A model generated the notes under the pieces. The model did not search any database. It had not been told where the DNA came from and saw only the letters and a program-made list of their open reading frames with translations. Of a stretch of 64,000 bases of DNA, positions 17,504-48,968 are shown in pieces. Where the stretch lies: contig JAAYBH010000045.1 of the NCBI GenBank assembly GCA_012718935.1, positions 1 to 64,000 of the forward strand, read 5' to 3'. The stretch is from Clostridiales bacterium (GTDB taxonomy: Bacteria > Bacillota > Clostridia > Oscillospirales > Oscillospiraceae). The translations under genes and the position numbers were made by a program. Every line of letters begins with the position of its first letter. Position 1 is the stretch's first letter.

Positions 17504-19039
<1,536 letters not shown>

Positions 19040-20226: not shown

Positions 20227-20257
20227 CGGGAACTGTCATCTCAATTGGAGGGAATGC

Positions 20258-23601: not shown

Positions 23602-23743
23602 CGCCGCGGTTTGTAAAGGCATGTTCTTCGCTTCCGGGTTCAAATATGAGATGTGGAATTCAGACTGTGCAAATAATGTTAAATCGGAAAAGATATGATA
23701 TCGTAAATACATGGAATGTTTTCGTCTGAAAGGATGTGGTATT

Positions 23744-29754: not shown

Positions 29755-31422
29755 CTATGAAGAGAATCCTTTGCGCTGCGCTGTCTCTTCATTCTGGTCC
29801 GTATATGTGTCGGGGTGCGACCCGGGGGCAATTCTTGGGGTTGCGCCGGGATAATCAACATCGGAAAGCGCATTGTTGTTGATCAGACGCAAAATCATAC
29901 AGGAGAGCAGAATGTGTAAACGTTCGAAGGGATCCTCAAGCTGCATCGGCGTAATATTTTCTATGCACTTGATCCTGTAGGCCAGGGTACTTCGGTGAAT
30001 AAACAGTTTGCTTGATGCGGTTAAGAGGCTCCTGTTGCTAAGCAGATAGGCTTCCAGCGTCTCAAGAAAATTTGTTTTATTTGCGATATCATATTCCTGC
30101 AAGCGAAAGGCTGCGTGATGGCACACAGCACGAAGCGGAAAACAGGAACTCAGATCGTTGATGATGTGCATTCCAAGGACGTCGCGGTAGTATTTGATGC
30201 GGCACTTCGACAGAGATGAGACTCTGTGCGGCAGCATCGCGAGGTTATATTGAAGCTTCAGTATATTAAAATCGCAGAACTTCATGCCGATACTGCATGA
30301 CCCATTGTTCAGTTTCAGCTGTTTTTTCAACAGCGGTATATTTTTCTCGAGCAAGGAGCAAGCGTCATTGTGCAGCAGCACGAAGATGAAGTCGTCAAAC
30401 CAAAAGGCAACACAATCGGAATAGGAGCCTGCAAAAACATTCTCGTAATCATACAAAAAATGGCTTATATTCTTATCCTCCGGTGGAAGCTTCACAAGCA
30501 GGATCTGATAGTCGTCGTTTGTACGCCAACCAAGACGCGCCATATTTGTGTGCAGGAATTTTGATTCCATAACGGTCGAATAGCGAAGCGCTGTTGTAAT
30601 GCTCGCCCGGAAGTAGTCATGTACGTCAACAAAGGTGTTAAACCGTTCAATCACGGTTTTATGCAGGATTTCTGCTATACAGTCTGTCAGCCACAGGTGA
30701 TGACCTGACAGAGCGCCATAAGTCCTTGAAAAGATCAGAGTCGCGACACGCGAACTCTTGTATTCGAACGAAATACTGATATAGTCCCGGCTGGCATCGC
30801 CTGAACTCAGAAAGGTCGATCGCGGACTCGGCTTCGATTTTATCTGGCGTTCCTTGGCTGTCTCTCCCGGGTTCATGGGTAATACCCAATGATTGGCTGC
30901 GAGCGTCTCTTGCCAGATAGTATTGCTATCCGGCGGCAGGTTGATGTCGCTGTACCCAAGAAGAGCCATATCCGAACCATAGAGAGAGACGTGACAATCC
31001 AGAAACGCAGCACAGGCATTGAGTACCGTCTGAAGCGACTTGTTCGTCAGAAGCGCATCCAATAATGCCCGTTCATGGTCGGCATATTTGAAGAAGCTGT
31101 TCTGTATTTCAAGCATGATGGCTGACTGGTTGCTGTCAGCTGAGTAAATCAACCCCCTGACCTGGTGTTTATCAAGCAGCGTAACCGCGTTACCTCCGCC
31201 ACCCAGACAGATAACGTTTTCAGGTAACCGGTGCAGTTCCCGAAGCTGCGGCCACTGTGCCAAATACAAAATATCCTCGGCATAAGGCCGTTCTGCGATA
31301 AAGGGACATATGCCTATCAGATTCATCGCGCCACCCGGACATCCCACAACGTGTTCATAAGGCGTTTCCAGGTAATCCATAATCATACCTAAATTGAGTT
31401 TCACTGTCATCCTCCCCGTCAA
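29755..31422 (-). CDS. PucR/CdaR-type transcriptional regulator
   Basis: C-terminal HTH: FLETLEAYLLSNRSLLTASSKLFIHRSTLAYRIKCIENITPMQLEDPFERLHILLSCMIL. Confidence 0.82.
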   Translation of the reverse strand: MTGRMTVKLNLGMIMDYLETPYEHVVGCPGGAMNLIGICPFIAERPYAEDILYLAQWPQLRELHRLPENVICLGGGGNAVTLLDKHQVRGLIYSADSNQSAIMLEIQNSFFKYADHERALLDALLTNKSLQTVLNACAAFLDCHVSLYGSDMALLGYSDINLPPDSNTIWQETLAANHWVLPMNPGETAKERQIKSKPSPRSTFLSSGDASRDYISISFEYKSSRVATLIFSRTYGALSGHHLWLTDCIAEILHKTVIERFNTFVDVHDYFRASITTALRYSTVMESKFLHTNMARLGWRTNDDYQILLVKLPPEDKNISHFLYDYENVFAGSYSDCVAFWFDDFIFVLLHNDACSLLEKNIPLLKKQLKLNNGSCSIGMKFCDFNILKLQYNLAMLPHRVSSLSKCRIKYYRDVLGMHIINDLSSCFPLRAVCHHAAFRLQEYDIANKTNFLETLEAYLLSNRSLLTASSKLFIHRSTLAYRIKCIENITPMQLEDPFERLHILLSCMILRLINNNALSDVDYPGATPRIAPGSHPDTYTDQNEETAQRKGFSS

Positions 31423-31542
31423 ACAATAAAACTATTCCGTCGTACAACGCGTAAAAACAATTTATTAAATACCTGATGATCATAAATACACAAAACACGG
31501 CTGCGTGAATACGCTGATGCGCTATTGAAAGGAAACATACAA

Positions 31543-32538
31543 ATGACATTGACACCGAAAGAAAACTATATCAAGATGCTCCATGGTGAAATCCCGGAAT
31601 TTATACCATCAATGCTGTATGCAACGCACAGTGCTCCTATCGGCGACGAGATGCTCACACCTCAATCGGCACCGAACGGGCCGGTGATGACGGCGTACGG
31701 AGTTGAATATGTCGGCAGCAAGGATATCAATAACGGTGCCATGCCGGCGCCCGGGAAAACACTTCTGAATGACATCCGAAAATGGCGTGATGTCATTAAA
31801 AACCCCGACACGCGGCATAGGGATTGGGAGGCATACTACAAGAAGAAGATCGATACGATCGATCGCGCTAATATGGCGGTTTCCTGTGTCGGCGGGGATT
31901 ATTTTTTGACACTGGTCAGCTTTATGGGGTTTGAGCAGGCATTGATGGCAATGTTTGAGGAGCCTGAAGAGGTCTACGCTCTCTTTGATTATGTTTCCGA
32001 GCACTATCTGAACGTCATGCGTCAGCAACTCAGGTATCTGAAGCCCGAGCTCTATACCATCATGGATGACGACGCCGCCTATCGCTCACCGTTCTTTTCC
32101 GTGGATATGTACCGGCAGCTTGTAAAACCCTTCCATAAAAAACATGCCGATCTCGCCTTGGAAAACGGTATCCTTTTAGAGCGTCACGACTGTGGGCGCT
32201 GTGAATGCTTCATCGACGACTGGCTGGAACTCGGCATCAAAAGCTGGAATCCAGCACAGGTTTCGAACGATCTGGTGGCGATAAAAAAGAAATACGCCGG
32301 CAAACTGGCCTTGTGCGGCTGCTGGGATAATCAGGGTAAGTTCAGCAGCCCGCTGATTGACGATGAGACATTGCGCGAAGCGCTTTATACATACGTTGAC
32401 ACGTTTGCGCCCGGCGGTGGATTCTCCTTCACAGCGAGCTTTATGGGATTTGCCGACGATCCGATTGCAAACAAGAAAAGAGAAATTATCCGTGATTTCT
32501 ATCACAGTTACGCTAAAAACTACTATCAAACACACTAA
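31543..32538 (+). CDS. URO-D-superfamily protein
   Basis: MTLTPKENYIKMLHGEIPEFIP start, LLERHDCGRCECFIDDWLELGIKSWNPAQ metal-site region. Confidence 0.82.
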   Translation: MTLTPKENYIKMLHGEIPEFIPSMLYATHSAPIGDEMLTPQSAPNGPVMTAYGVEYVGSKDINNGAMPAPGKTLLNDIRKWRDVIKNPDTRHRDWEAYYKKKIDTIDRANMAVSCVGGDYFLTLVSFMGFEQALMAMFEEPEEVYALFDYVSEHYLNVMRQQLRYLKPELYTIMDDDAAYRSPFFSVDMYRQLVKPFHKKHADLALENGILLERHDCGRCECFIDDWLELGIKSWNPAQVSNDLVAIKKKYAGKLALCGCWDNQGKFSSPLIDDETLREALYTYVDTFAPGGGFSFTASFMGFADDPIANKKREIIRDFYHSYAKNYYQTH

Positions 32539-32550
32539 TCGGAGGATATC

Positions 32551-33516
32551 ATGAAAGAGAAAGAAAACATCCTGCGATGTTACAGACATCTGTTACCTGA
32601 TCACCTCCCTGATTTGTCACAAGGACATCAGATGATTCTGCCGGCCGGCTTTAATGAGGTACCGCCGTATGAACAGGGAGGCCTTGATTGGTTCGGAGTT
32701 CTTTGGCGTACCGAAACGCCGGCGGCTATCCCCGATCCGATGGCGCCGAGGGTTCTGACCGATATCTCAAAATGGCGTGAGCAGGTTAAATTCCCGGATC
32801 TGGATCTGTGGGACTGGGATAACGCAGTCATTGTTGATAAAGTCGATGTTTTTGACAGAGAAAACAAGCTGATGGAGGTCCTGATTAAGGAAGGCCCCTT
32901 TGAGAGGATACACGCACTGATGGGTATGCAGGAGGCGCTCACTGCCCTTCTGACCGATCAGGAGGAGTTTATAGCACTGGCGTCCGCGATTACCGATTTT
33001 AAATGTCAACTGATCAACAAGGTTGCGCAGTACTACAAACCAGATATTATCAATTTCCATGACGATTACGGTACTCAGAAAAGCATGATGCTCTCACCGG
33101 TGCTTTGGCGGCGGATATTCAAACCGCTGATTCAAAAGGTCGTTGCCGTTTGCCACAGCCACGGGATCTTTTTTGATCTGCATTCATGCGGGCTAATCGA
33201 ACCCATCATACCCGAGCTCGCGGAAATTGGCGTTGATTGCCTCAACTGCATGCCGATCAATGACATTCCGAAAATGAAAGAGCTGACCAGCGATAAACTC
33301 ACCTTCTTTGTCGGCTTTGATGTGCAGAAATACGAGCTTTGCGACCGGACGGGACAGTTAACAGGCGATATCCGGAACGAAATCCGTGAAACGATCGCTG
33401 CCTGGGGAAAAAATGGGAATTATCTTCCGAGCAATCGCCTGAGTGAATGGTGGGTAAGCAAAGTCATTGCGGAGGAACTGGAAAACATGCGTTGGACAAT
33501 GTACCCAGCGCTCTGA
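32551..33516 (+). CDS. URO-D-superfamily protein
   Basis: FHDDYGTQKSMMLSPVLWRRIFKPLIQKV...FFDLHSCGLIEPIIPELAEIGVDCLN. Confidence 0.82.
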   Translation: MKEKENILRCYRHLLPDHLPDLSQGHQMILPAGFNEVPPYEQGGLDWFGVLWRTETPAAIPDPMAPRVLTDISKWREQVKFPDLDLWDWDNAVIVDKVDVFDRENKLMEVLIKEGPFERIHALMGMQEALTALLTDQEEFIALASAITDFKCQLINKVAQYYKPDIINFHDDYGTQKSMMLSPVLWRRIFKPLIQKVVAVCHSHGIFFDLHSCGLIEPIIPELAEIGVDCLNCMPINDIPKMKELTSDKLTFFVGFDVQKYELCDRTGQLTGDIRNEIRETIAAWGKNGNYLPSNRLSEWWVSKVIAEELENMRWTMYPAL

Positions 33517-33621: not shown

Positions 33622-34401
33622 TCAGAACTGATCCTTGAATTCCGCATACACTTTCGGCAGAATTACCGCAAGATTTGTGAATTCCTTGATATTATGAAGA
33701 AGAAGCTCCTTGACGCCGTCAGTCGGGATTTTTGCGCCGTCAGGCAGCATTTTAAACGGCTTCCCTTCCCGGACACCCCAACCGGTCCAGAAGCGGGTCC
33801 TGAGCTCCGACCCTCCCTCTGTTGGGCGGACAAAATGCACCATGATGACAGGCGCGTGTTCATTTCCGGCGCAGACGATCGTGCCCTTGAAGTCTTTGAG
33901 TTTTTCCTTATCAAAGCCGATATCGGCAGGATTGCGGAAATTGATCATTATATCAAGGACAGGCCCCTCGGGCGACATGGCTTCCTTGACGTCGTGAATT
34001 GTATCCCAATAACGCTCTTTCATTGAAAGTGACGAATCCCGGGCTTTTTCAGGATTCCGTGTAATGGCCTGGTGGTGCTCGTCATGACACCATATTTTAT
34101 ACCTGAGCGGCTCCAGGCCATGCCAGGCGAACCACCAGTCGAACATATCGGGTGTGACGCCCGGCATCAGTGTATGATTGGCAAGCATTGCGGTGCCATC
34201 CTCAAACTGGGTATAGCCGATCTCTCCGTACATATAACCTTCGTCGAAAAGCTTGTTGAGGTCGGGAGCTCTGTGTGCCTTAGCCGGATCAAGCGGTGTT
34301 TCTGCTTTTTTGTAACTCTCGGCGGGTGGGGTCGCCATTTCCATTACGAAATACTTGTAAAGCGGGCTGTTCATTTCAGCACCAGTGATGGGTACCGGCA
34401 T
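33622..34401 (-). CDS. DAPG/phloretin hydrolase-like (PhlG-family) protein 1
   Basis: GYMYGEIGY, MPGVTPDMFDWWFAWHGLEPLRYKIWCHDEHH, KERYWDT, LLHNIKEFTNLAVILP; paralog of 48171..48968. Confidence 0.75.
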   Translation of the reverse strand: MPVPITGAEMNSPLYKYFVMEMATPPAESYKKAETPLDPAKAHRAPDLNKLFDEGYMYGEIGYTQFEDGTAMLANHTLMPGVTPDMFDWWFAWHGLEPLRYKIWCHDEHHQAITRNPEKARDSSLSMKERYWDTIHDVKEAMSPEGPVLDIMINFRNPADIGFDKEKLKDFKGTIVCAGNEHAPVIMVHFVRPTEGGSELRTRFWTGWGVREGKPFKMLPDGAKIPTDGVKELLLHNIKEFTNLAVILPKVYAEFKDQF

Positions 34402-34479
34402 TTTTTGTCATCCTTTCTTTAGTGCAGATGAACTCTGCAGCATCTATTATGAATTCGATGTTCGTTTGAGGCTGCGGGA

Positions 34480-36468
34480 CTACATAATTTCGAGCGCAGC
34501 CAAAAATCCGCTTCTTACAGCTGATTCAACTTTTCCCGGCCGTGCGCAGTCACCGACCTTGTACACTCTTATGTTTTGAGTAATGCTGTCAATTTCCTCG
34601 GTTGAATTGGGGGACATACCCAGCGCATATATGACAGTATCGCCTTTCAAAACACTTTCATTCCCGTCTTTGTCGACGATACGGACTGATCCCGGTGTTA
34701 TCTTCTGGCAACGCATTTCCGTAAGGACTTTAATTCCCTCACTTTCCATTTCCATGGTCAACGCTTCTCTGTACATTCCGAAGGAATCGTTTGCTATTCG
34801 CGGTAATTTCTCAATAACCGTAACCATATGGCCTGTTTTGGCAAGATGCAGACCAGTCTCGCAGCCGACAAGACCGCCGCCCACCACAATGACGCGTTTT
34901 CCCATCGGATAGCCTTTATATACATCGACAGCATGCTGTATTTTGTCTATTCCAGGGATGGACGGTACGGCTGGGCGGGATCCCACAGCCAGTATAACAG
35001 CGTCCGGTTGGAGCTTACGTATCAAGGTCGCGTCTGCAACGGTATTTAGGAGAATCTGAGCCCCGCAGCGCTCTGTAAGCCGAATAAGGAGATTCTTGAA
35101 ATCCCGTAGGTCCTGCTTTGAAACATCTGTCTCGGTAAAATTCAGCATTCCCCCAAGCCTGTGTTCGCTCTCCGCGAGTACAACCCGATGACCGCGGTCT
35201 GCTGCTGTTATCGCTGCCTGCATACCGGCTGGTCCCCCGCCAGCGATGAGAACTGTTTTTGGTGAACTCGGGGTGGGAAAGAGTGCCAGGTCAATGGGCA
35301 GATTGGCAATTGGATTGATTGTACAGTTTCCGACGCGTTTGGACAGCTCGGCGCTTGACCAGGGTATGTCTTTATATCCTTCTTCCGGTGAGCCTGGGAA
35401 GCAATTAAAACAGCGGATGCATCGACGGATTTCGTCAGCCTTCCCGTTAAATGCTTTCGCAGGAAAATACGGGTCCGCAAGCATCTGCCGTCCAAGGATC
35501 ACATAGTCCGCCATGCCCTCGGCAATTATCTGCTCGGCCTGTTCGGGTGAATTGAAGCCTCCCACGACACCGACGGGCAGGGTCGTGTACTTTTTGAGCT
35601 TGTCGGATACGGCAGCATTGAACCCATGCGGAACATACATTGAAGAGAATTGGCGCGTTTTTATAGGTTCGGTGTAAAGACCGGCGGAGACATGAATCAG
35701 ATCAGCTGTCCCCTCCAGCATCCTGCAAAACCGGCCTATATCATCGAGTGTGATACCTCCCTGCACGCCTTCTGTTGCGCTCAACCGCACTTCAATTAAA
35801 AAATCGGAGCCGACACGTTCCCGTATACCTCTGATAATATTCAGAGGAAATCTGGCTCTGTTCTCCAACGGGCCGCCATATGTATCCGTTCTGGTATTCA
35901 GCCTCGGCGATAAAAACTGTGTGAATAAAAACCCGTGACCGGCATGAATAAGGACGCCGTCAAAACCGGCAGCTTTCATAAAACTCGCCGCATCCTCAAA
36001 GTCTTTTATAACGCGGGCCATATCGTCATCGGTCATTGCAGCGACCTTAACTCCGTCAGGCCGAGTCAGATTCACGGGGCCTATCGGCCCCTTCTGCCCT
36101 TCAAAAGGTGTTTTTTCTGAACCGGGATGTGCCAGCTCGATCATCGCCAGAGCGCCGTGCTTCTTTATTAAAGTCGCATAATGACCAATCGCTTCAAAGG
36201 CCTTGCCTCCATGCTCGGAATAATCAAAGGGCGGGAACGGAAGGCGGTCAGCATCTGTAAAGTTGACATTTGTTTCACCGACATATACTGCGGCGGCTCC
36301 CCCCTCTGCAATCGCCTCTATTTTGCGGTACGCCCGCGGGCCAGCTTCGGGATCAAGTGCGATCAGGCCGAAAGCCATTGGGGCATTCACAATTCTGTTC
36401 TTAAAGGTATGGCATCCAACTGTCAATGGACTCATTAAGTTCGTAAACGGTCTGTATATTCTTCCCAT
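34480..36468 (-). CDS. OYE-family NADH:flavin oxidoreductase / enoate (2,4-dienoyl) reductase-like Fe-S flavoenzyme
   Basis: N-terminal OYE barrel (LIHAGHGFLFTQFLSPRLNTRTDTYGGPLENRARFPLNIIRGIRERVG), Fe-S cysteines RRCIRCFNC...NCTINP, C-terminal FAD/NAD motifs VLIAGGGPAGMQAAITAADRGH. Confidence 0.92.
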   Translation of the reverse strand: MGRIYRPFTNLMSPLTVGCHTFKNRIVNAPMAFGLIALDPEAGPRAYRKIEAIAEGGAAAVYVGETNVNFTDADRLPFPPFDYSEHGGKAFEAIGHYATLIKKHGALAMIELAHPGSEKTPFEGQKGPIGPVNLTRPDGVKVAAMTDDDMARVIKDFEDAASFMKAAGFDGVLIHAGHGFLFTQFLSPRLNTRTDTYGGPLENRARFPLNIIRGIRERVGSDFLIEVRLSATEGVQGGITLDDIGRFCRMLEGTADLIHVSAGLYTEPIKTRQFSSMYVPHGFNAAVSDKLKKYTTLPVGVVGGFNSPEQAEQIIAEGMADYVILGRQMLADPYFPAKAFNGKADEIRRCIRCFNCFPGSPEEGYKDIPWSSAELSKRVGNCTINPIANLPIDLALFPTPSSPKTVLIAGGGPAGMQAAITAADRGHRVVLAESEHRLGGMLNFTETDVSKQDLRDFKNLLIRLTERCGAQILLNTVADATLIRKLQPDAVILAVGSRPAVPSIPGIDKIQHAVDVYKGYPMGKRVIVVGGGLVGCETGLHLAKTGHMVTVIEKLPRIANDSFGMYREALTMEMESEGIKVLTEMRCQKITPGSVRIVDKDGNESVLKGDTVIYALGMSPNSTEEIDSITQNIRVYKVGDCARPGKVESAVRSGFLAALEIM

Positions 36469-36483
36469 ATAAGTATTCCTGCT

Positions 36484-37479
36484 TTACGCGCCGGAGAGTT
36501 TATGAAGACGCGTTCTCTTCCTTCTGTACTCGCCGATTTTTGCTTGGTTGGAGGTGACCGCCAGGAATACCACCAGAAAAATACCGATGCCAAATGTCTG
36601 CATCGAGGCAGGTATTCCGAGGGACAGCATTCCCGCCATAAGGAGTTTTATTGTAAATGTCCCTACGAATGTGCCGAACGCCAGATTTGTATATCTTGAG
36701 AGATATAGACCGATAAACACAGCCGGGAACGCTTCAAACATCATGCCCATCGCACCGTTGAATTTAATAGGCGCCTGGACGATACCAGAGACGGACAGGT
36801 TCATTGTTGCTGCACAGCCCAGCAGGATACCGCTTAATATATAGCAGCTCAGAAGATTTCGCTTTTCTTTGATTCCGGTGCTGACTGCCAGGGCCTGATT
36901 GCCCGCTAACGCCCGAACGTTATATCCAAATCTCGTTTTCGAAAAAAGCATGTAGAAAACAAGCCCGGCTAAAATCCCAAGGGCAAAAATCCACGGTGAC
37001 CTCCCAAAAATCAACATGGCTGTATCACTGATCTTGGCGCCCGATCCGCCTCTCCATACAAGAGCCACGCTTTCATAAGCGATCATCGTTCCGATGCTGA
37101 CAACAAGGGTCGGTACTCTGATCAGCAGATATACGACGGCATTGATAAGAGAGAGAATGACGGCAGCAATGATTGTTATCATCAAAAGACCAGGCGCACC
37201 AATGTGAAGCGATTCAGCTATCGGCGCTGATATGATTACAGATAGAACAACGATCAGTCCGACAGAGAAGTCCCACCTGTTGTTTATTAAGTTGCACGTC
37301 ATTGCCAAAGCAATACAAGCGCCGATCATAGTCTGCTGGGCAATCATGCGGATACTCGCCCATGATCCAAATCCGCTCTTCCCTATAATACGCGCCAGGA
37401 TCATAAACAGCAGAAGTATGCCGATCGGCAATATCAGCGTCTTAATTAGGTTCAGAACAACAGGTTTAACCCTTCCCAT
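36484..37479 (-). CDS. ribose-type ABC transporter permease
   Basis: Polytopic; CNLINNRWDFSVGLIVVLS region, RFGYNVRALAGNQALAVSTGI. Confidence 0.88.
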   Translation of the reverse strand: MGRVKPVVLNLIKTLILPIGILLLFMILARIIGKSGFGSWASIRMIAQQTMIGACIALAMTCNLINNRWDFSVGLIVVLSVIISAPIAESLHIGAPGLLMITIIAAVILSLINAVVYLLIRVPTLVVSIGTMIAYESVALVWRGGSGAKISDTAMLIFGRSPWIFALGILAGLVFYMLFSKTRFGYNVRALAGNQALAVSTGIKEKRNLLSCYILSGILLGCAATMNLSVSGIVQAPIKFNGAMGMMFEAFPAVFIGLYLSRYTNLAFGTFVGTFTIKLLMAGMLSLGIPASMQTFGIGIFLVVFLAVTSNQAKIGEYRRKRTRLHKLSGA

Positions 37480-37516
37480 TTTAATGCCCCTTTAAACCCC
37501 CAAGGCCACCGGTTAC

Positions 37517-37541
37517 CCCGGCAGTCTTGTTGACTGCCGGG
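37517..37541 (-). promoter_or_regulatory. intercistronic hairpin after substrate-binding-protein gene
   Basis: CCCGGCAGTC ttgtt GACTGCCGGG between SBP stop (37583, -) and permease start (37479, -). Confidence 0.85.
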
Positions 37542-37582
37542 ATAACCAGCATTCTCGGGTGCTTCTTCTCTTAATAATTATC

Positions 37583-38734
37583 TTACGCCAAATTATCCAT
37601 TTTGAAATCAGCGGCAAGAGCATTGACGTTATCCAGGCTAGCTCCCGCGGTTGTCACAACGATGATTTTTTGAATTTCCTCCAGGCTGAATGCCGATTTA
37701 TCAAGGAAAGTCTGATAATCCTTTTCGCTGCGCATGATCAGGTTGTCCATATTGATAACAGGCGCCGAACCATCGGCATTTGCGAGTCTATTACCCGAGA
37801 TCGCATTATAAAGCAAAGCAAAGCAGATTTGTGCACGGGCATTGGCGCCGTCGCACGCATACGTGATGGTGCCCTGCTTAAAGGCGTTGAGAACATCGCC
37901 GCCGTCTTCAAATGTCGTCACCTGGACTTTTCCGTTCAAGCCCGCGGCAAGCAGCGGCTGCTCAATATAGGTGGTTGTGTCGACACCGGATAGAATTGCC
38001 TCAATATCAGGATTCTGCGTTAAAAGGTTCTGTCCGGCTTCGGTGACGTTAAAGGATCTGGCTTCAGCGGCAAGAGTCAGGCCTGCTTCCGTAACTGCTG
38101 CGGTGGCACCGTTCAAGCGATTGTCAAAAGTGGCAGCCGTTCCGGGAGGCATGCCAAGCGTTGCAAATTTTGTCAGACCTTTATCGATCATCTCTTTTGT
38201 GATGTCGTACATGGTCTGATAATCATTGGGAGCCACACTGCCGACAAAATAATCATTCATTTTTGTGGTTTCGTAACCGCTGTCGAGACTGGCGTCATTT
38301 TCGCAGGCGATAAAGAAAACCTTTGCTTTCTCGCAGGTCTCCATTATGCGCGACGTCATGCTGCCTGTCGCAAAAGCGATGATTCCGTTGACTCCCGATG
38401 CGCAGAGGTTTTCCACGCCGGATAACACTTCGTCAGGCGTGGCTGCCGGATTGCCGTTAATAAATTCACAGTTATACGCATCGGCAAGCGGCTTTAATGC
38501 TTCATTAATTCTCTCAACCCACGGGCCGGTATACTTAAAGGACAGTATGCCGATCTTATATTGCGGCAGCTCGGGTTTCTCGGGTACGGCAGAGCCCTCC
38601 GGGGACGCCGACGGGGCTGCGGACGGCGCAGTCGATTGCGGAGCCTGGCTTGGATTCGGATTTGTTTGGGAACATGCGCTGAAAACAAAAAGAATGACTA
38701 GGATGACACTAATTATTTGACCCAACTTTTTCAT
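37583..38734 (-). CDS. sugar-type ABC transporter substrate-binding lipoprotein
   Basis: ILVILFVFSACSQTNPNPSQ lipobox; YKIGILSFKYTGPWVERINEALKPLADAYNCEF periplasmic-binding fold. Confidence 0.88.
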   Translation of the reverse strand: MKKLGQIISVILVILFVFSACSQTNPNPSQAPQSTAPSAAPSASPEGSAVPEKPELPQYKIGILSFKYTGPWVERINEALKPLADAYNCEFINGNPAATPDEVLSGVENLCASGVNGIIAFATGSMTSRIMETCEKAKVFFIACENDASLDSGYETTKMNDYFVGSVAPNDYQTMYDITKEMIDKGLTKFATLGMPPGTAATFDNRLNGATAAVTEAGLTLAAEARSFNVTEAGQNLLTQNPDIEAILSGVDTTTYIEQPLLAAGLNGKVQVTTFEDGGDVLNAFKQGTITYACDGANARAQICFALLYNAISGNRLANADGSAPVINMDNLIMRSEKDYQTFLDKSAFSLEEIQKIIVVTTAGASLDNVNALAADFKMDNLA

Positions 38735-38762
38735 TTGTTATCCTCCATACATAATTTTTTAT

Positions 38763-39683
38763 TTACCGAGGCAGCAAGCCTTTACGGTCTCTTTTATATG
38801 TGCTCAGAACGACAAGCAGAAAAATGATTCCCTGAATGATTCCAATATACTCGCTTTTCAGCCCAAGCATTGTCAGTCCATTGACGAGCATCACAACGAT
38901 AAAGCTGCCGATGACAGCACTCCTGACAGACACAGTGTAGCCTCCCGTCAGAGACATCCCGCCCAGTACAAGAGCGATTATGACGTTGAGCTCCAGGTTT
39001 TGACCGACGTTTGTTGTAACAGTGCCGTTACGCAGGAGTTCAAAAAAAGACGCAATGCCGAGGATGACGCCGCTGATGAGATACGCCAGCATGCGGTACT
39101 TCTTCGTATCAATACCTGATATCTCCGCCGCTCTGATGTTCTCTCCGATCGCCTTGTTATACTTCCCGATCCTTGAATATTTGAGTACAACGAACATAAA
39201 CGCCAGGATCACCAGGAGTACCGGGAGCTTTAGCCACCAATTGGGATCCCGCAATTCCGAGACGCCGATGGAATGGCCTGTCAGCACTGAATTCACAACC
39301 CCTCTAGCGGCAAACTGCATGCAAAGGGATGAGATAAACGGTGTGATGTTCAGTCGGATTGTAATCGTTCCTGTAATGAAACCACAGAGTCCCGCGGTCA
39401 GTACGCTGAAGATCAGTAAAAGAGCGGGAACACCGGTCGCCCGGTATACAAGAACAGCGACCACCTGAGACAGTGCCAGGACGGCACCCACGGAGAAATC
39501 CATGCCGCCGTGGGCGTAAATTATGGTGGTTCCCATTGAAACCAAAACAACTGTAAATGTTTGATTGAGCAAAAGCGCAACATTGCCGCCGGATATAAAA
39601 CGTCCGTCTGTCAGCACGGCAAACAGCAAGGCTGCGGCAATCAGGCTTGCATAGGGTAAGAACAGTTTAAACCTGCTCATCAT
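38763..39683 (-). CDS. ribose-type ABC transporter permease
   Basis: Polytopic; YAHGGMDFSVGAVLALSQVVAVL, AAEISGIDTKKYR, LVLGGMSLTGG. Confidence 0.9.
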   Translation of the reverse strand: MMSRFKLFLPYASLIAAALLFAVLTDGRFISGGNVALLLNQTFTVVLVSMGTTIIYAHGGMDFSVGAVLALSQVVAVLVYRATGVPALLLIFSVLTAGLCGFITGTITIRLNITPFISSLCMQFAARGVVNSVLTGHSIGVSELRDPNWWLKLPVLLVILAFMFVVLKYSRIGKYNKAIGENIRAAEISGIDTKKYRMLAYLISGVILGIASFFELLRNGTVTTNVGQNLELNVIIALVLGGMSLTGGYTVSVRSAVIGSFIVVMLVNGLTMLGLKSEYIGIIQGIIFLLVVLSTYKRDRKGLLPR

Positions 39684-39700
39684 ATTTGAACGATCCCTCT

Positions 39701-41197
39701 CTATATCATGGATTCAATAAGGTCGTGCTCAGACAGGGAGGCACTGCGTCCGTACTCTCTCTCGACCCGTCCATCTTTAATAATCAGAATTCTGTCGCTC
39801 ATGCCAAGCAGTTCCTGCAGCTCCTCAGATATCAGCACAATTGAGCAGCCATCTGCTTTGAGTCTGACGATAAGGTCATACATCGCACATTTGACTCCAA
39901 TGTCGACCCCTCGGGTTGGGCAGTCTAGTATCAGGATTTTTGAGTCGTTGCCGATCCATTTGGAAAAGACAACCTTTTGCTTATTGCCGCCCGACAAGAA
40001 CCGTACCTGCTGACTATGCGATGCACATTTAATGGCCAATTCCCTCACCATATCATCCGCAAGACGATTTTCTGTTTTCGGCGATATCAGATGGCCTGGA
40101 ATCTTCTTTTTCAGTGCCGAAGCAACGATGTTATCTCTAATGGATGCTCTGAGCATCAGCGCTTCCTGATCCCTGTTTTTTGATACATATCCGATGCCGT
40201 TATCAACAGCAACCTCAGGGTTGTTTATCAGGGTGCCGTCTGCGAGCCGGACGCGACCCGATATCGCCTTATCCAATCCGAAGAGCAGTCGTCCCAACTC
40301 ATGCATGCCGCTGTCCGACAATCCCCCGATCCCAAGGATCTCACCCTTGCGCAACTCGATATTCACGTTCTCAATAACCTCGGCTCCGCAGAGGTTTTCA
40401 GCGCTCAGGACAGCTTCTCCTGTATCGGTGGCATCATAATCGACTCTGTACATATTATCTTTGATTTCCCTGCCGACCATCATTGACCTGATCAGTTCAA
40501 CTGAGAATTCGTCTTTATTCAGCGACCCTATGATCTTTCCGTCCCGCAGTACAGTCAGTTTCGTGCATACCGTCATGAGCTCTTCAAGATCATGGGTGAT
40601 AAAGACGACGCCCTTCTCTTCCTGGCGAAGCTTCTCCATAACTGCATACATCAAGGTACGCCCGCGCATGGATATCGCCGTTGTCGTCTCATCAAGGATA
40701 AAAACAGACGGTTTATCGACCATTGCCTTTGCAAGCTCGACGATTTTCCGATCCTCAAAACTGAGCATTCCTACAGGAATCGCTGGGGAAATTGTCAGCT
40801 CGCCGATGTTCTCCAATGCTTCCGAAGCGCTTTTTATCATTTTCTTTTTATGCACGATCCCAAGTTTGGAAAACAGGCGTTCTTTACCCAAAAAAATGTT
40901 TTCTGCCACACTCAGCTCCGGCACAGTACCCATCTCCTGTACAACCATTGAAACGCCCAGTTCTTGAGCGTTCACAACGTTCAATGGCCTGTAAGGAAGG
41001 CCGGATTTCTCCATAGTCCCCTCATAGTGCTGCAGGATGCCCGCCATGATTGATGTCAGCGTCGATTTCCCTGAACCGTTCTCGCCGACAAGCCCGTGAA
41101 TCTCGCCTTTACGGAGTTCAAAATCGACGCCATCCAACGCCTTAATCGGCCCGAATAATATTTTTATGTCCTGTACACGCAGCAGGATATCGTTCAT
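39701..41197 (-). CDS. sugar ABC transporter ATP-binding protein, duplicated ATPase
   Basis: GLVGENGSGKSTLTSIMAG; VRFLSGGNKQKVVFSKWIG; ILILDCPTRGVDIGVK. Confidence 0.93.
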   Translation of the reverse strand: MNDILLRVQDIKILFGPIKALDGVDFELRKGEIHGLVGENGSGKSTLTSIMAGILQHYEGTMEKSGLPYRPLNVVNAQELGVSMVVQEMGTVPELSVAENIFLGKERLFSKLGIVHKKKMIKSASEALENIGELTISPAIPVGMLSFEDRKIVELAKAMVDKPSVFILDETTTAISMRGRTLMYAVMEKLRQEEKGVVFITHDLEELMTVCTKLTVLRDGKIIGSLNKDEFSVELIRSMMVGREIKDNMYRVDYDATDTGEAVLSAENLCGAEVIENVNIELRKGEILGIGGLSDSGMHELGRLLFGLDKAISGRVRLADGTLINNPEVAVDNGIGYVSKNRDQEALMLRASIRDNIVASALKKKIPGHLISPKTENRLADDMVRELAIKCASHSQQVRFLSGGNKQKVVFSKWIGNDSKILILDCPTRGVDIGVKCAMYDLIVRLKADGCSIVLISEELQELLGMSDRILIIKDGRVEREYGRSASLSEHDLIESMI

Positions 41198-41315: not shown

Positions 41316-42218
41316 TTATGTAAAATCGATTTCTTCTATGAGCTCATAAACAGATAGGAAGAGCGGTATGCAAGGATTGTCGTTTTTTTGGTTCCAGGCG
41401 ACCACCATCTCCATGGGAAACAAGTCTCTGAGCCGCACCATCGTCATGCGCGGATTGAATGCGGCCGTATTGTTTTCGCTGCCGACAGCGACTCCTCTGC
41501 CTGATTCCAAATAAAGCGTCTGTGCGTTGACATCTGCAGCATCTAAAACGTTCGGAGTAAATCCGGCTTTCTTGCATTCCTGCATCAGCATTGCGTTAAG
41601 TACCGGAGATTCTTTGGCCGAAATATTAATAAAGGTTTCATCGCAAAAATCAATCAATGACAGACCTTCCTTGTGTGCAAGAGGATGTCTGGCGTTTAGG
41701 ATCAGCACGGATTCAATGTTGTAAAGCTTATGGTAATTCAGCCAGCCCCTGTCAATCACATCAATTTTCAGAGCAAAAGAGAGGTCGAGAGTATTCTCGT
41801 ACAGCCACTGTATCAGTTCCCTGTGGCTGCCCCGGCGCAGCAACAATTCAATGTTGGGATACTTCTGTTGAAACCGGTCAAACAGTATCAAGGTCCGCTC
41901 GTCAATCCGGTCGGCGCCGCTGAGCCCGATACGCAATGTGCCTGCCTTGCCCTGCTGGATAATTTTTGCCTTCTGCAGCAGATGGTCGAACTGTTCATGC
42001 AAATTTTTTAAGCCTTCATAAAGAACAGCCCCGGCCGGTGTCAGGAGCGTATCCTTCCGCTTGTTGTTGCGGACGAACAGCTCAACACCCCATTCCTCCT
42101 CCAACGTCAGAATATTATGGCTGAACGCCGGCTGAGAAATGAACATTTCTGCCGCACTCTCGGTAAAATTGAGGTTCTGAGCCGCCTTCAGGAAACACAA
42201 GATTTGCATTGAGTTCAT
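41316..42218 (-). CDS. LysR-family transcriptional regulator
   Basis: N-terminal HTH: MQILCFLKAAQNLNFTESAAEMFISQPAFSHNILTLEEEWGVELFVRNNK. Confidence 0.93.
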   Translation of the reverse strand: MNSMQILCFLKAAQNLNFTESAAEMFISQPAFSHNILTLEEEWGVELFVRNNKRKDTLLTPAGAVLYEGLKNLHEQFDHLLQKAKIIQQGKAGTLRIGLSGADRIDERTLILFDRFQQKYPNIELLLRRGSHRELIQWLYENTLDLSFALKIDVIDRGWLNYHKLYNIESVLILNARHPLAHKEGLSLIDFCDETFINISAKESPVLNAMLMQECKKAGFTPNVLDAADVNAQTLYLESGRGVAVGSENNTAAFNPRMTMVRLRDLFPMEMVVAWNQKNDNPCIPLFLSVYELIEEIDFT

Positions 42219-42430: not shown

Positions 42431-43294
42431 TTATTTCCCGAGCCCCAGAATCGCCCGCGCCTCGCTGGGCGTGGCGACCTCGCAGGTAAACTCCTCGATA
42501 ATGCGCCTTGCGCGGGCGACAAACTGCATGTTGCTGTCGGCGATAACGCCTTTTCTGTACAACACGTTATCCTCCATGCCCACGCGGATATTCCCGCCCA
42601 TGGCAATCGCCGCATAGAGTATTTCCATCGCGCCGGCGCCCACGCCGAAGGCCGACCAGGTGGAGCCTGGGGCGACGGCGTCCATCGTGTCCTTCATGAA
42701 CACCAGATTCTTCGTCGTGGCCGCAATGCCCCCCGGCACGCCCATGCAGAACTGGAAATGGCACGGCGTCTTCAGGATGCCCTTCTTGATATAGTACCCT
42801 GCGTTGTAGATCATCCCGGGGTCAAAGACCTCGATTTCCGGCTTCACACCGGCTTCCTGTGCCATCAGACCCAGCTTTTCCAAGAATTGCGGATTATTCT
42901 CGAAGACGGCGTTGTGCTGCCAGTTCATCGATCCGCAGTCATAAGAGCACATCTCCGGCTTCAGCTCGTAGAAGGGCCGCAGTCTGTCTTCTTCCTTCAG
43001 GTTCACGCCGCCCGAGGTTGTAATGTTGAGGATAATGTCGCAATCACGCCGCGCGCGGACGAGCCGTACCGTCTCCTCGAACTTCTCGAAGACCATCGCC
43101 GCTTTTCCGTTGTCGTCGCGGCAGTGGATATGCGCGACGGCCGCGCCTTCCTTCCAGCAGTTGTAAATCTCCTCGGCGATCTCAAGGGGCTCGATGGGCA
43201 CGTTCGGCGTGTTTTCCTTCGTCGGCCACGCCCCCGTTGTCGCGACGGTGATGATCCGCTTGTTTTTTAAATCTGCCATACTGGTGTACTCCAT
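42431..43294 (-). CDS. BKACE (beta-keto acid cleavage enzyme, DUF849) family; candidate triacetate-cleaving enzyme
   Basis: VAHIHCRDDNGKAA Zn-ligand motif; GGNIRVGMEDNVLYRKG hallmark; ITTSGG. Confidence 0.92.
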   Translation of the reverse strand: MEYTSMADLKNKRIITVATTGAWPTKENTPNVPIEPLEIAEEIYNCWKEGAAVAHIHCRDDNGKAAMVFEKFEETVRLVRARRDCDIILNITTSGGVNLKEEDRLRPFYELKPEMCSYDCGSMNWQHNAVFENNPQFLEKLGLMAQEAGVKPEIEVFDPGMIYNAGYYIKKGILKTPCHFQFCMGVPGGIAATTKNLVFMKDTMDAVAPGSTWSAFGVGAGAMEILYAAIAMGGNIRVGMEDNVLYRKGVIADSNMQFVARARRIIEEFTCEVATPSEARAILGLGK

Positions 43295-43313
43295 TTCATT
43301 AGAAAAGCCTTTA

Positions 43314-43383
43314 TGTCATTCCCGCGAAAGCGGTAATCTACTTTATACGGCGAGTGTGGTTTCCCGCCTGCGCGGGAATGACA
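43314..43383. mobile_element. MITE/REP-like palindromic element
   Basis: Terminal inverted repeat TGTCATTCCCGC ... GCGGGAATGACA; spurious frames give the familiar CHSRESGN...RLRGND and CHSRAGGK...RFRGND peptides of a widespread bacterial repeat. Confidence 0.75.
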
Positions 43384-43391
43384 GTTGTGCC

Positions 43392-44363
43392 TCAGATATT
43401 CCCTCCGTAGGTATAGGTTCGCGTCGGCACGTCGTTCAAGTCGCTTTCGTCGATCTCCGCAACGCAGCGCACCATGGATCCGTCGCCCAGGTACCACCGC
43501 AGCGGGAAGCAGAAAAACCGGAAGCGTTTGCCCGAGACCTTGTCCAGATCCCCGCCAAGATTCTCCACGCCCACGATACCGTGACCCAGCATCTGCTTGT
43601 GGCAGGGCTCCCAGGTGCCCCAGCAGCCGATGGCCTCCAGATCCCCGAACTTCTTCATGTACGCTTCCTGCCCGTGAAGCTTGATGTACAGCTCCCTGTC
43701 GAATTCGGCGTATGCTTCCTCGCCAAACTGTTCAATGTACTCCTCGGTGATCGGCCGGCCTGTCGCGCCAAGGAGATTCATCCGCGTCATGCCGTTGTTG
43801 CCCATCGCCGTGTGCAGCGGATGATCCAGCGCCTGGCTGTCCATCGCCACGCATTTGACCTTGTGCTCCACAAACCATTTGCCGGCTTCGACGCCGGTGC
43901 CGCAGCTGTAGTGATAGTACTCCTTGGAATCGTCGAACAACCGGTGCATACCCGTGTTCAGGCATATCACCATGCCCTCCAGCTCACCTGGTTTGATGCC
44001 GACTTTTTCACAGGCCGCTTCCAGATGCTTCGGACCGATGAGCCCCCAGCGCTCGATTTCAATGGGCAGGCAGACGGCGTCGCCCGTATAGGCGTCGACG
44101 GGCATTTCGTGGGTATAGCGGGCGCGCCGGCCGTCAAACTCCCGCTCCATCACGTGGCGCGGCGCGTCGGCGTGCGTCCCTGTGTGCATGGTGCAGGTGA
44201 CCTTCTGCGTCAGAACGCCGCCCTTGGCCATGGTGTGCGTGTTGTCAATGACCGGCTTGTCAAAATACGGCCAGCGGGGAATTTCCGCGCTGAACGGGTG
44301 TGACAGATCCACAAATACTTTCTTTCCCATATATATTCCTCCTGTATTCTCGTTGTTTTTCAT
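43392..44363 (-). CDS. cyclase-family (kynurenine formamidase-like) metal-dependent hydrolase; candidate dihydrophloroglucinol cyclohydrolase
   Basis: MHTGTHADAPRHV (HxGTHxDxPxH) metal-binding motif; extended C-terminus. Confidence 0.88.
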   Translation of the reverse strand: MKNNENTGGIYMGKKVFVDLSHPFSAEIPRWPYFDKPVIDNTHTMAKGGVLTQKVTCTMHTGTHADAPRHVMEREFDGRRARYTHEMPVDAYTGDAVCLPIEIERWGLIGPKHLEAACEKVGIKPGELEGMVICLNTGMHRLFDDSKEYYHYSCGTGVEAGKWFVEHKVKCVAMDSQALDHPLHTAMGNNGMTRMNLLGATGRPITEEYIEQFGEEAYAEFDRELYIKLHGQEAYMKKFGDLEAIGCWGTWEPCHKQMLGHGIVGVENLGGDLDKVSGKRFRFFCFPLRWYLGDGSMVRCVAEIDESDLNDVPTRTYTYGGNI

Positions 44364-44372
44364 CGTGCCGTT

Positions 44373-44441
44373 GGGCGGACACAGGGGTCCGCCCTATAGC
44401 CTATATACCTTATTCCGTAGCGACCGACCCCCATGTCGGTC
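44373..44441. repeat. two adjacent intercistronic hairpins
   Basis: GGGCGGAC/GTCCGCCC (44373-44394) and GACCGAC/GTCGGTC (44422-44441) between cyclase and dehydrogenase genes. Confidence 0.75.
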
Positions 44442-44451
44442 CGAAACACGG

Positions 44452-45381
44452 CTATTTCCCGTACAGCACATTTATCAGGTACGTGTTCAGGTCGTCCTTC
44501 ACTGCCTGCATCTCCTCCGGCGTCCAGCTCCGAAAGCCTTTGCCCGTCTTGAAGCCCAGGTCTCCGGTATCGCGCAGTTCTCTGAGAATCGGGGACGGCT
44601 TATCGGAAGATTCCAGAAACGGCAGTATGTAATCGTGGATGCTGTACGTCAGGTCGGTGCCGACCATGTCCGCGTTTTCAAGCGGTCCCAATTGCGGCAG
44701 ACGCAGGCCGAAGGAGTACTTCACCGCCATGTCCACCGTCTCGGCGTCGGCGATGCCGTTCTCGACGATGGAGATCGCCTCCCGCCACAGGGCGTGCTGC
44801 ATCCTGTTGGCGACAAAGCCCGGCACATCCTTTTGACACAGGACAGGTTTCTTGCCGGCGGATACCAGAAGCGCCATAACGGTCTCCGCCGTCTCATCGG
44901 ATGTCGCGTCTGATTTGACGACCTCTACAAGCGGTATCAGGTGCGCCGGATTCCAGAAATGGGTGCCGGCAAACCGTGTGCGGCATTTCAGTTCCGCGCT
45001 GATCTCGGAAGGGCTCATAACGGAGGTGTTGGTGCAGAAGATGGCGTCCTCCCTGCAGAGCGTCTCCAGCGCGGCAAATGTCCGCCGCTTCACCGCCATG
45101 TCCTCGTACACGGCTTCAATCACAAGGTCGGCGTCCCTGACGGGCGCACTGCCCATATCTGTCGTAAAGACGATCCGGTTCAGACGGCTTTCAAGCTCAG
45201 CTTCCGTGATGACGCTGTGCTCAATAAGCTGCCGGCAATTCGCCCTGATACCCGCGCGTATGTCTGTTTCGGCGATGTCGGTGACGACGACCTTCAGCGC
45301 CGGGTTTGCCGTAAGGACAAAGGCGATATTTTTGCCCATCATCCCCCCGCCGACGACGAGGACGTTTTTAATGCTTTTCAT
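44452..45381 (-). CDS. 3-hydroxyacyl-CoA dehydrogenase-family protein; candidate 3-hydroxy-5-oxohexanoate dehydrogenase
   Basis: NVLVVGGGMMGKNIAFVL; DLVIEAVYEDMAVKRRTFAALE; FAGTHFWNPAHLIPLVEVV; PGFVANRMQHALWREA. Confidence 0.9.
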   Translation of the reverse strand: MKSIKNVLVVGGGMMGKNIAFVLTANPALKVVVTDIAETDIRAGIRANCRQLIEHSVITEAELESRLNRIVFTTDMGSAPVRDADLVIEAVYEDMAVKRRTFAALETLCREDAIFCTNTSVMSPSEISAELKCRTRFAGTHFWNPAHLIPLVEVVKSDATSDETAETVMALLVSAGKKPVLCQKDVPGFVANRMQHALWREAISIVENGIADAETVDMAVKYSFGLRLPQLGPLENADMVGTDLTYSIHDYILPFLESSDKPSPILRELRDTGDLGFKTGKGFRSWTPEEMQAVKDDLNTYLINVLYGK

Positions 45382-45393
45382 ATCAAAAGCGAC

Positions 45394-46194
45394 CTAACAG
45401 GCCCAGTAGCCGCCGGTAGCGTCATAGTTGCCGCCGGTGAGGAAGTCCGATGCCGGAGAAGCCAGGAACGTCGCCAGACCGACAAAGTCCTGCACCTCGC
45501 CCAGCCGCCCGATGGGCAGGCGCTTGAGGAAGTTCTGGTAGACGGCCGATTCGGGATCGAACATCCACTCGGTGAGATCGGAGCGGAACACCGTGGGATT
45601 GATCGTGTTGACGTTGATATGATACGGCGCCAGATCACTGGCCATTGACTGGATCATCAGATCGCAACCGCCCTTGGAGGCGCAGTAACCCGTATATCCC
45701 TTCATGCCCATTTTGCTGCGGGCGGACGAGGTGACGACGAGTTTGCCCCCCTTGTTCTGGGCTACCATCTGCTCGGCCGCGGCCTTGCAGACCACATAGA
45801 CGCTCTTAAGGTCTGCGTCCATGATCTTCTGCCACTCCTCCACGCTCTGCTCCAGGATACCTTTCGGCGCGTTGAAGCCATGGCAGACTGTCAGAATGTT
45901 CAGCTCTCCGTATGTCTTGACGGCAAATTCAACCGCCTTTTTCATGTCTGCCTCGACCGCCGGGTCTCCGGTAATGACGGCACAGTCGATGCCCTCAGCT
46001 TTGAATTCGGATTCAAGCGCTTTCAGCTTTTCCGTGTTGCGCGCCGTCATGACGACCTTGGCGCCCTGGTAGCCGTAGGCCTTGGAGACAGCCCCGCCGA
46101 GAGCGCCCGTGGCGCCAGTGACAAGCGCAACCTTACCCTTGATGCTGAACATCCCCTGTGCAAAATTCTTTTCGACTTTGATCAACGAAGCCAC
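45394..46194 (-). CDS. SDR-family oxidoreductase; candidate phloroglucinol reductase
   Basis: [41 protein letters not shown]. Confidence 0.9.
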
Positions 46195-46204
46195 AACCTT
46201 TCGT

Positions 46205-47896
46205 CTATGATTTGTTCGGCTTTACGGGCCATTTTTCCCATGGCACATCCTCGGTGCTCAGCGTCATCTTATTGCCCTGATTCTTAACGATAATCCATTT
46301 CAGCCAGTTCTCGTTATCCGTTTCCGGATAATCCTCGCGCAGGAACCACCCGCGCGACTCCTTGCGCATCTGCGACGCACGGAACTGCATCTCGGCAGAC
46401 AGAACAGCAGCTTCGGCCTCGTGGCAGTTGAGCAGCTCATGGAAGTCATCCGCCTGCAGCATACCAAGCATTTCCTTGGCCTTTTCCACATAGCGTAAAG
46501 CCGTTTCAATGCGGTGTCCACTCATATAGACAGAACGCTCCATCGGACCAACCGCTTTCTGGATCATGCGCACAACATCCTTTGCCTTAACACCGTTTTC
46601 ACGCAGGATCGGCGCATATACCCGCTCAACACATGTTTCAACCTGCTTCTCATCAATTTGCGGGAGCACCGCTTTGGCGGCAATTTCGGCAGCGGTAGGC
46701 GCGCACATCATACCAGCAAAGACGGCATTCAAGATGCCCGAGCCGCGGTTGCGTCCCGGCGGGGCGGGAACGGCGCCAGGCGCTGCTGAACCGCAGTAGC
46801 TCACATCTCCAATGGCGAACAGACCGGGAATCGTCGTTTGCATGTCGTGTCCCACCTTGACCGGAGACTGCTCGCCGATCAGCATGGGACAGACTTCATT
46901 GTTATCGCCGTCCACTGCGCCGGCACGCTTGTGATTTAACTCCCAAAAACGCATTCCGTACGGGCGTTCCCACAGCATGCTCAAGGGTCCTCCACCCCCA
47001 TCGCCCTTCGGCCGCTCCTGTTTCAGGACGATAGGTCCGGTGTTTGCGGTCATCTGCTTGTACCATTCAGCAATAGCCGAACTGCTGATGTCCGGCTCGG
47101 GCCCGGTGCGGAAATTCTTGGTTACATGTTGGTCCAGCTTGTTATACATGAAGTTTTCGCCGTAGACGACCTCCGAATGGCTGTTGACCTTAACCAGCTG
47201 CGCAAAGTTGCCAAATTCGGTGTTTCGCATTTCGGCGCCGGCACGGTATGCTGCTGCGATCCCGTCGCCACGGCCGCTGCCCCACATAGGCCCGATCCGG
47301 TAGTTCTGACTGCCAGTTGCTAAGACGACGGCCTTCGCGTTGAAAGTATAGAACTTGCCGTCCAGAATGCTGTAACCCGTGGCGCCGGAAATTTTTCCGT
47401 CTGAGGTAAGCAGGTCGGATACCGCGACCTTATCCATGACTTTAACGCCCATTTTTTCAGCGGTCTGGCGGATCTTAAGCGTAACGTCCAGATCAATGCC
47501 GATGATCGCCGTCATCGGGCCGGTCGGTATGACGGCGTAACTCCCATCCTCGCGTTTTGGCACACGGGCACCCCACTGGACCAGCTTATCAAACATCAGG
47601 TTGTTCATGGAGACATATTTGACCATAAGCTCCTGGTCACCCAGGAAGCACCCGATGGTATTGGCATGATACGCGGCAAATTCCTCCGGCGTCACACGAC
47701 CCATATCGAAGTATTGTAGGACACCACCGCCCTTATTGGCCTTACCGGAATATCCGCATGTCTGCTTTTCAACAAGCAGAACACTGAGATTTGGGTTTTC
47801 TTCCTTAATTGCAACAGCAGCTGTCAAACCTGCAATTCCGCCGCCGACGATCAGTACATCGGAGGTCAGATTTTCTCGTCCGAATTTTGTTTCCAT
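46205..47896 (-). CDS. FAD-binding fumarate-reductase/AprA-like flavoprotein (shorter subfamily)
   Basis: [79 protein letters not shown]. Confidence 0.88.
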
Positions 47897-47911
47897 TTAT
47901 CTTCCCCCTCC

Positions 47912-48157: not shown

Positions 48158-48170
48158 GACTCAGTCCTCC

Positions 48171-48968
48171 TTAAAAGTTGTCCCGTTCTTCCGGGTAAAT
48201 CTTTGGCAGCAGAGCTGCGAGATTTGTAAATTCCTTGATGTTATGCAGATTGAGCGCACGAAGCGGGACATCGGGTATCACAACGCCGTCGGGAATCATT
48301 TTCACTGTCTGCCCTTTGATGCACGCATATCCCATCCAAAAACGGGTTCTGAGCTCCACGCCGCCCTCAATATCGCGTATAAAATGGCACATGATCGTGC
48401 CAGGACCGCCATGAGACATTCCGTGGGCGCAGACAATGGTCGAACAGGCGCTGGTGCCGATTTTTGAGACGTCAAAGCCCATATCACCGGGGTTCTTGAA
48501 ATTGATGATGATGTTTTCAGGGCCAAGTCCGCAATCTTCGTAGACCAGGTGGGTCGTATCCCAATACCGCTCCTTGTAACTGAGCATCCGGTCTCTCCCC
48601 TTCTCCTTCTGCAAGGATTCGGCGCGGTAGTGGTCTTCATGATCCCATATGGTGTAGCGGAGATTGTCCAGGCCGTGCCAGGCAAACCACCAGTCAAACA
48701 TTTCTGCTGTCACACCGGGCATTTTCACGAGATTGGAGACATATCCTGTCCCATCCGGCATGACGCAATAACCGATTTCCTCTTCAAAATATCCGGGTTC
48801 GAAAAGGCGGTTCCGATCCTTGGCGGGCAGCGCCTTCGAAGGGTTTAAGGGGCCGTTTAGCACCTTCTGATAATGCTCTGGCGGAGCGTCTGCCATTTCA
48901 TTCAGATAATACTTGTAATAGGATTTTTTCTTGTCTTCTTCAGTAACAGGAACTCGTTTTTTTTCCAT
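48171..48968 (-). CDS. DAPG/phloretin hydrolase-like (PhlG-family) protein 2
   Basis: MPGVTAEMFDWWFAWHGLDNLRYTIWDHEDHY, KERYWDT, LNLHNIKEFTNLAALLPKIY; paralog of 33622..34401. Confidence 0.75.
   Translation of the reverse strand: MEKKRVPVTEEDKKKSYYKYYLNEMADAPPEHYQKVLNGPLNPSKALPAKDRNRLFEPGYFEEEIGYCVMPDGTGYVSNLVKMPGVTAEMFDWWFAWHGLDNLRYTIWDHEDHYRAESLQKEKGRDRMLSYKERYWDTTHLVYEDCGLGPENIIINFKNPGDMGFDVSKIGTSACSTIVCAHGMSHGGPGTIMCHFIRDIEGGVELRTRFWMGYACIKGQTVKMIPDGVVIPDVPLRALNLHNIKEFTNLAALLPKIYPEERDNF

Follow-up and report, generated by a model that had tools for sequence, protein, structure and literature searches.

The stretch of DNA considered here is a window of 64,000 nucleotides (positions 1 to 64,000 of contig JAAYBH010000045.1) from a Clostridiales bacterium of the Oscillospiraceae (assembly GCA_012718935.1). 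The locus in question is a run of six minus-strand genes, at positions 33622-41197, which encode an ABC importer, an OYE/enoate-reductase-type flavoenzyme (hereafter the OYE), and a hydrolase of the PhlG family (PhlG1). In the order of transcription, the genes encode an ABC ATPase with two nucleotide-binding domains (39701..41197), permease 1 (38763..39683), a substrate-binding protein (SBP; 37583..38734), permease 2 (36484..37479), the OYE (34480..36468), and PhlG1 (33622..34401), separated by gaps of 17, 28, 103, 15, and 78 bp, respectively. As these gaps are only 15-103 bp, the six genes are read as operon-like, and their spacing is consistent with a single transcription unit. The initial annotation had described the same run, and all of its members are present on the minus strand with strong family matches, as is the LysR gene that it had noted upstream (41316..42218, minus strand), which lies 118 bp from the ATPase gene. 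The exact six-gene set was absent from every other genome examined. The window forms part of a contig of 66,348 bp in a 3.3-Mb assembly of 541 contigs, which is 93% complete with 5.8% contamination, and a chimera is not indicated, given that genomes of the same genus share the gene order. A scan for promoters and terminators gave counts of 18 and 15, which are close to the respective background values of 11.7 and 10.9.

The hydrolase PhlG1 (259 aa) belongs to the DAPG/phloretin-hydrolase family of C-C hydrolases, with a PF18089 match of E=4e-67 and 226 bits, against a gathering score of 22.7. Its best match in the PDB is a phloretin hydrolase (5xe5, 8e-35), followed by PhlG (3hwp, 4e-24). It has in common with these two proteins, from Mycobacterium and Pseudomonas, respectively, the PF18089 fold family and four predicted zinc-ligand positions, which the alignment places at H109, E140, H236, and E240, the counterparts of the PhlG ligands H129, E160, H270, and E274. 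It differs from them in its overall identity of only ~30%, and in the presence of Phe and Ala in place of Tyr229 and Asn132 of PhlG. As a diacetylphloroglucinol hydrolase equivalog (NF047887), PhlG1 was rejected, with 95 bits against a cut-off of 600. A tree of 45 PhlG proteins places it in a clade whose members are mostly adjacent to, or fused with, an FrdA-like flavoprotein. The initial annotation had called it a second PhlG-like hydrolase, and this wording is borne out by PhlG2 (48171..48968, minus strand; 265 aa; PF18089, 1e-77), which is 52% identical to PhlG1. A search of a plasmid collection with PhlG2 recovered only distant matches from Pantoea, Sulfitobacter, and actinobacteria. A PhlG homologue (43-56% identical) was also found beside a LysR gene on an IMG/VR contig classed as viral (L024).

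The OYE (662 aa) is predicted to contain an FMN domain (Oxidored_FMN, 6e-56), the four cysteines of a [4Fe-4S] cluster, and an FAD/NAD(P)H domain (Pyr_redox_2, 1e-32), the combination that is typical of the OYE/enoate-reductase type. This domain order is common to the 2-naphthoyl-CoA, 2,4-dienoyl-CoA, and enoate reductases, and the AlphaFold2 model (pLDDT 78) resembles both 2-naphthoyl-CoA reductase (6qkg, TM 0.84) and 2,4-dienoyl-CoA reductase (1ps9, TM 0.83), although CoA substrates, as used by these two enzymes, are not expected here. The OYE differs from this group in two features, a Phe in place of a Tyr at position 180, within the motif H175-x2-H178-x-F180, and an additional segment between the third and fourth cysteines of the cluster, CFPGSPEEGY, which precedes the fourth cysteine and is common to most members of its clade. 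Classical OYE ene-reductases have a proton-donor Tyr (Tyr169 in YqjM), and this residue is replaced by Phe in the present enzyme, in the aligned members of its clade, and in those of the Lachnospiraceae. Judged from the sequence, Phe180 would fit the delivery of a hydride with a phenolate leaving group, as in ether cleavage or ring opening, better than ene reduction. A number of more specific identities were rejected by their NCBIfam equivalog cut-offs, that is, BaiCD (376 bits vs 825), bilirubin reductase (340 vs 750), and the mycofactocin OYE (371 vs 793), and FLR was ruled out as a different class of protein.

The relationships of the OYE link it to PhlG. In a tree of 50 proteins, it belongs to a clade of 25 members (support 99/97), which includes OYEs that adjoin PhlG, often together with an FLR homologue and a divergent LysR gene, in eight Flavonifractor-type genomes and in Clostridium sp. 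E02, as well as tandem OYEs near PhlG in a further genome (G084). The best Flavonifractor plautii match (53%), which lies beside an FLR homologue, is also a member. Lachnospiraceae that carry PhlG have clade members with 50-53% identity, several of which adjoin FLR homologues, and the order in one of these genomes is OYE-OYE-transporter-PhlG1-like. Elsewhere in the clade, there are members whose surroundings contain neither a PhlG nor an FLR gene. The association was also evaluated in a sample of 251 genomes of the family, leaving out the genome of the window itself and using a threshold of E<=1e-150 for the OYE. PF18089 was found in 15/18 of the genomes with the OYE (in one, G035, by a weak match only), against 43/232 of the others (p=3e-8), and, by genus, in 12/15 against 20/90 (p=3e-5), with the p-values being indicative, because the genomes are not independent. 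The comparison of the two trees shows members of the OYE clade together with PhlGs of at least three different clades, so that the pairing probably has several origins, through the repeated recruitment of these OYEs to PhlG. In Clostridium caldaquaticum (L186, 6814-7677), only the C-terminal half of an OYE, from the Fe-S to the FAD/NAD domain, is encoded next to PhlG and an FrdA-like gene, and this might be a remnant or serve as a separate partner in electron transfer.

The known degradation of flavonoids provides the closest comparison. The initial annotation had considered it established that an OYE-type ene-reductase saturates flavones in this pathway, and this does not hold, given that the flavone-saturating enzyme is FLR, which belongs to a separate ene-reductase class (PMC7862272). 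Within the pathway, the OYE/enoate-reductase type is represented by Fcr, whose reaction, the reductive opening of the C-ring in flavanones and flavanonols, needs no chalcone isomerase (CHI; PMC11868195, PMC8398226). In C. butyricum, flr, fcr, and phy are consecutive (PMC11868195), and an Fcr is also listed for F. plautii (PMC8398226), whose CHI and FLR genes were found as a pair (L180). FLR itself, which belongs to the same pathway and has homologues that adjoin the relatives of the OYE in other genomes, is unrelated to the OYE as a protein. As its clade ties the OYE to PhlG and FLR homologues, and the co-occurrence ties it to PhlG, its closest known relative is the fcr-phy pair (C. butyricum, PMC11868195; F. 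plautii and E. ramulus, PMC8398226), in which an OYE/enoate-reductase-type enzyme is likewise encoded with an enzyme of the phloretin hydrolase family, and the best F. plautii match falls in the same clade. The window differs from these arrangements in that no FLR or CHI gene was detected in the genome, a CUT2 ABC importer lies upstream, and the PhlG derives from the clade associated with the FrdA-like flavoprotein.

The possible fate of the cleavage product is indicated by a second operon on the same strand (42431-48968), which begins 212 bp further upstream, beyond the LysR gene. It encodes a BKACE protein resembling triacetate acetoacetate-lyase (TAL; 42431..43294; PF05853, 2e-103), a cyclase-family protein resembling dihydrophloroglucinol cyclohydrolase (43392..44363; PF04199, 5e-31), a member of the 3-hydroxyacyl-CoA dehydrogenase family resembling 3-hydroxy-5-oxohexanoate dehydrogenase (44452..45381) and an SDR resembling phloroglucinol reductase (PGR; 45394..46194), both by family match, an FrdA/SdhA-like flavoprotein (46205..47896), and PhlG2. 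The PGR, cyclohydrolase, dehydrogenase, and TAL genes are thus found together at the level of the family, and the same gene families, at 42.4-46.2 kb here, make up the characterized phloroglucinol degradation cluster of Clostridium scatologenes (PMC10470551). This agrees with the expectation that the six genes would feed the operon at 42-49 kb, in so far as the gene content of the latter is that of the known cluster, with the difference that it is joined here to two PhlG hydrolases, an FrdA-like flavoprotein, an OYE, and an ABC importer. The FrdA-like gene adjoins PhlG in many genomes, and the two are fused in some, as in the BLAST-verified single open frames of 821-887 aa in L227 (6308-8773), L230 (999-3473), and L225 (5544-8207), with approximately 16 genomes having PhlG open frames of this size. 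This adjacency and fusion suggest a coupled reductase-hydrolase. The GC content is ~0.48-0.51 over PhlG1, the OYE, the importer, and LysR, and 0.55-0.59 from the BKACE to the FrdA-like gene, and the parts of the block may have different histories.

The importer has the composition of a CUT2 system, with a double ATPase of the AraG/RbsA type, two BPD_transp_2 permeases, and an SBP of the Peripla_BP_4 family (55 bits) with a lipoprotein-type N-terminus, and it reached no sugar-specific equivalog cut-off. Homologues of permease 2 that are 54-58% identical occur in PhlG-bearing genomes, and the SBP was matched (E<=1e-50) in 5/251 genomes, all five of which encode PhlG (5/5). The SBP of the window is the divergent member of its group, being 42-44% identical to relatives that are themselves 65-76% alike, and this suggests either a changed ligand or relaxed constraint. 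Its AlphaFold2 model was of low confidence (pLDDT 42). The LysR protein is 54-77% identical to the LysR of the phloroglucinol/PhlG operons of relatives, and probably belongs to the whole block.

Taken together, the block is interpreted, with a probability of roughly one half, as a module for the anaerobic catabolism of a flavonoid-type (aryl-acylphloroglucinol) compound. The CUT2-type importer would take up a phloroglucinol-containing aromatic compound, and the Fcr-like OYE would pass electrons from NAD(P)H, through FAD, the [4Fe-4S] cluster, and FMN, for the reductive opening of a flavanone or flavanonol ring to the dihydrochalcone, or the reduction of a related compound, as may be deduced from its clade, gene neighbourhood, and motif. 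PhlG1, as a zinc-dependent C-C hydrolase, would then cleave the dihydrochalcone to phloroglucinol and an arylpropionate, which is consistent with its family and the intact metal-ligand positions, and the adjacent operon would reduce, open, and thiolytically cleave the phloroglucinol, given a gene content like that of C. scatologenes. As neither FLR nor CHI was found in this genome, the entry of flavones by the known route is unlikely, and, since Fcr needs no CHI, a route through Fcr and PhlG from flavanones or similar compounds is the most economical reading. The arrangement is new, and composed of largely known parts, in which a pair of the fcr-phy type is combined with an ABC importer and an operon for phloroglucinol. 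If correct, this would place all steps, from the uptake of flavonoid-type compounds, through their reductive opening and C-C hydrolysis, to the fermentation of phloroglucinol, within a single 16-kb block, in a bacterium that is not among the well-studied species of the human gut. It would further define, by sequence and by a residue signature open to testing, a clade of OYEs that could mark the anaerobic degradation of flavonoids. It would also supply a candidate uptake system, where the cited literature names only a facilitator, the major facilitator transporter described with the C. scatologenes cluster (PMC10470551). A bolder version, which appears rather unlikely, is that the block forms a complete reductive-cleavage route, with an importer of its own and no need for FLR or CHI. 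The Phe180/CFPGSPEEGY clade would then have exchanged ene reduction for the reductive opening of ethers or rings, with repeated recruitment to different PhlGs, and the FrdA-like-PhlG fusion would do an equivalent job in other genomes.

A number of observations weigh against the flavonoid module. The search of the genome for FLR returned only a partial match of 25 bits, and CHI was not detected; the comparison with Fcr was made through the F. plautii OYE of highest similarity (53%). On its 14.7-kb contig, the closest OYE orthologue (G091, 71%) is not accompanied by PhlG, which is located elsewhere in that genome. As the 3.3-Mb genome contains approximately 24 genes for OYE-type Fe-S flavoenzymes, the next best paralogue being 41% identical to the OYE, the chance that an OYE lies in such a position is greater here than in other genomes. 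Related importers (ATPase 57-59%, SBP 41-45%) are found in or beside phloroglucinol/PhlG operons that have no OYE, in L035/L130, L025, and, in part, L136. The L035/L130 type contains genes for PucR, URO-D, the importer, LysR, PhlG, the FrdA-like flavoprotein, SDR, dehydrogenase, cyclase, and BKACE, with its URO-D and PucR resembling those of the window at the family level (29-36%). Given these relatives, the importer is associated with the phloroglucinol/PhlG block in its entirety, and the “dedicated” importer of the initial annotation was not confirmed. They also favor the possibility, which is doubtful on balance, that the importer and LysR are part of the phloroglucinol operon, with phloroglucinol itself or a simple derivative as the compound taken up, and that the OYE and PhlG1 are inserted between the importer and the regulators and act separately, in the absence of any dedicated flavonoid importer. 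The orthology of LysR to that of the phloroglucinol operons and the presence of PhlG in every SBP-bearing genome of the sample point in the same direction, whereas the outlying position of the SBP within its group, and the location of the OYE only 15 bp after permease 2, in the same orientation, argue against a separate role.

The nearest relatives of PhlG1 (82-87% identical, in two genomes of the same genus) also count against the flavonoid module, as they adjoin PucR, URO-D3, and an 85%-identical glycyl radical enzyme, and have neither the OYE nor an importer of this type. PhlG1 might thus mainly serve the glycyl-radical-enzyme/URO-D/PucR cluster (23-33 kb), acting on some other acylphloroglucinol or methoxylated aromatic compound, and its place by the OYE would be secondary. 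This is improbable, however, as PhlG1 and the OYE have the same orientation and are 78 bp apart, divergent URO-D genes separate PhlG1 from PucR, and the OYE-PhlG pairing recurs in other genomes, including with PhlG1-like hydrolases (L073, L266). It is more improbable still that the compound degraded by the OYE and PhlG1 is an acylphloroglucinol other than a flavonoid, such as microbial diacetylphloroglucinol or the plant acylphloroglucinols, with an unsaturated side chain as the target of the OYE. True diacetylphloroglucinol hydrolases do belong to the PF18089 family, and the lack of detectable FLR and CHI would agree with such a substrate, but PhlG1 falls far short of the equivalog cut-off and matches phloretin hydrolase better than PhlG, and the OYE clade occurs together with FLR homologues. 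The import, reduction, and cleavage proposed by the initial annotation are supported in part, by the link of the OYE clade to PhlG and FLR homologues, the co-occurrence of the OYE with PhlG, and the gene content of the adjacent operon. The ene-reductase step and the dedicated importer are not borne out, and the PhlG1 orthologues by the glycyl-radical-enzyme cluster count against the proposal.

The neighbouring cluster includes two divergent plus-strand genes for URO-D-like proteins (31525..33516), which are candidate methyltransferases with an H-x-C motif, 31-34% identical by BLAST to URO-D-like genes near the related importers, and without a Pfam match at 1e-8. Four such proteins were recorded in all (window 26231-27340 and 31525-33516; L037), with H-x-C being present in the three that were checked, and they may act in O-demethylation. 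The PucR-type regulator (29755..31422, minus strand) has orthologues of 58-59% identity that adjoin the PhlG1 orthologues of the same genus. The glycyl radical enzyme (window 23711-26188) is of the PFL2/dehydratase type, closest in the PDB to choline lyase and glycerol dehydratase (~380 bits), and it reached no equivalog cut-off; its 85% conservation beside the PhlG1 orthologue in two genomes of the same genus is accompanied by the start of an activating-enzyme-like gene near the end of a contig (L037). A second CUT2-type importer, with FAD-dependent oxidoreductases, is located at window 12484-21628, and its SBP and ATPase are conserved (71-80%) by the glycyl radical enzyme in another genome (G001, L026).

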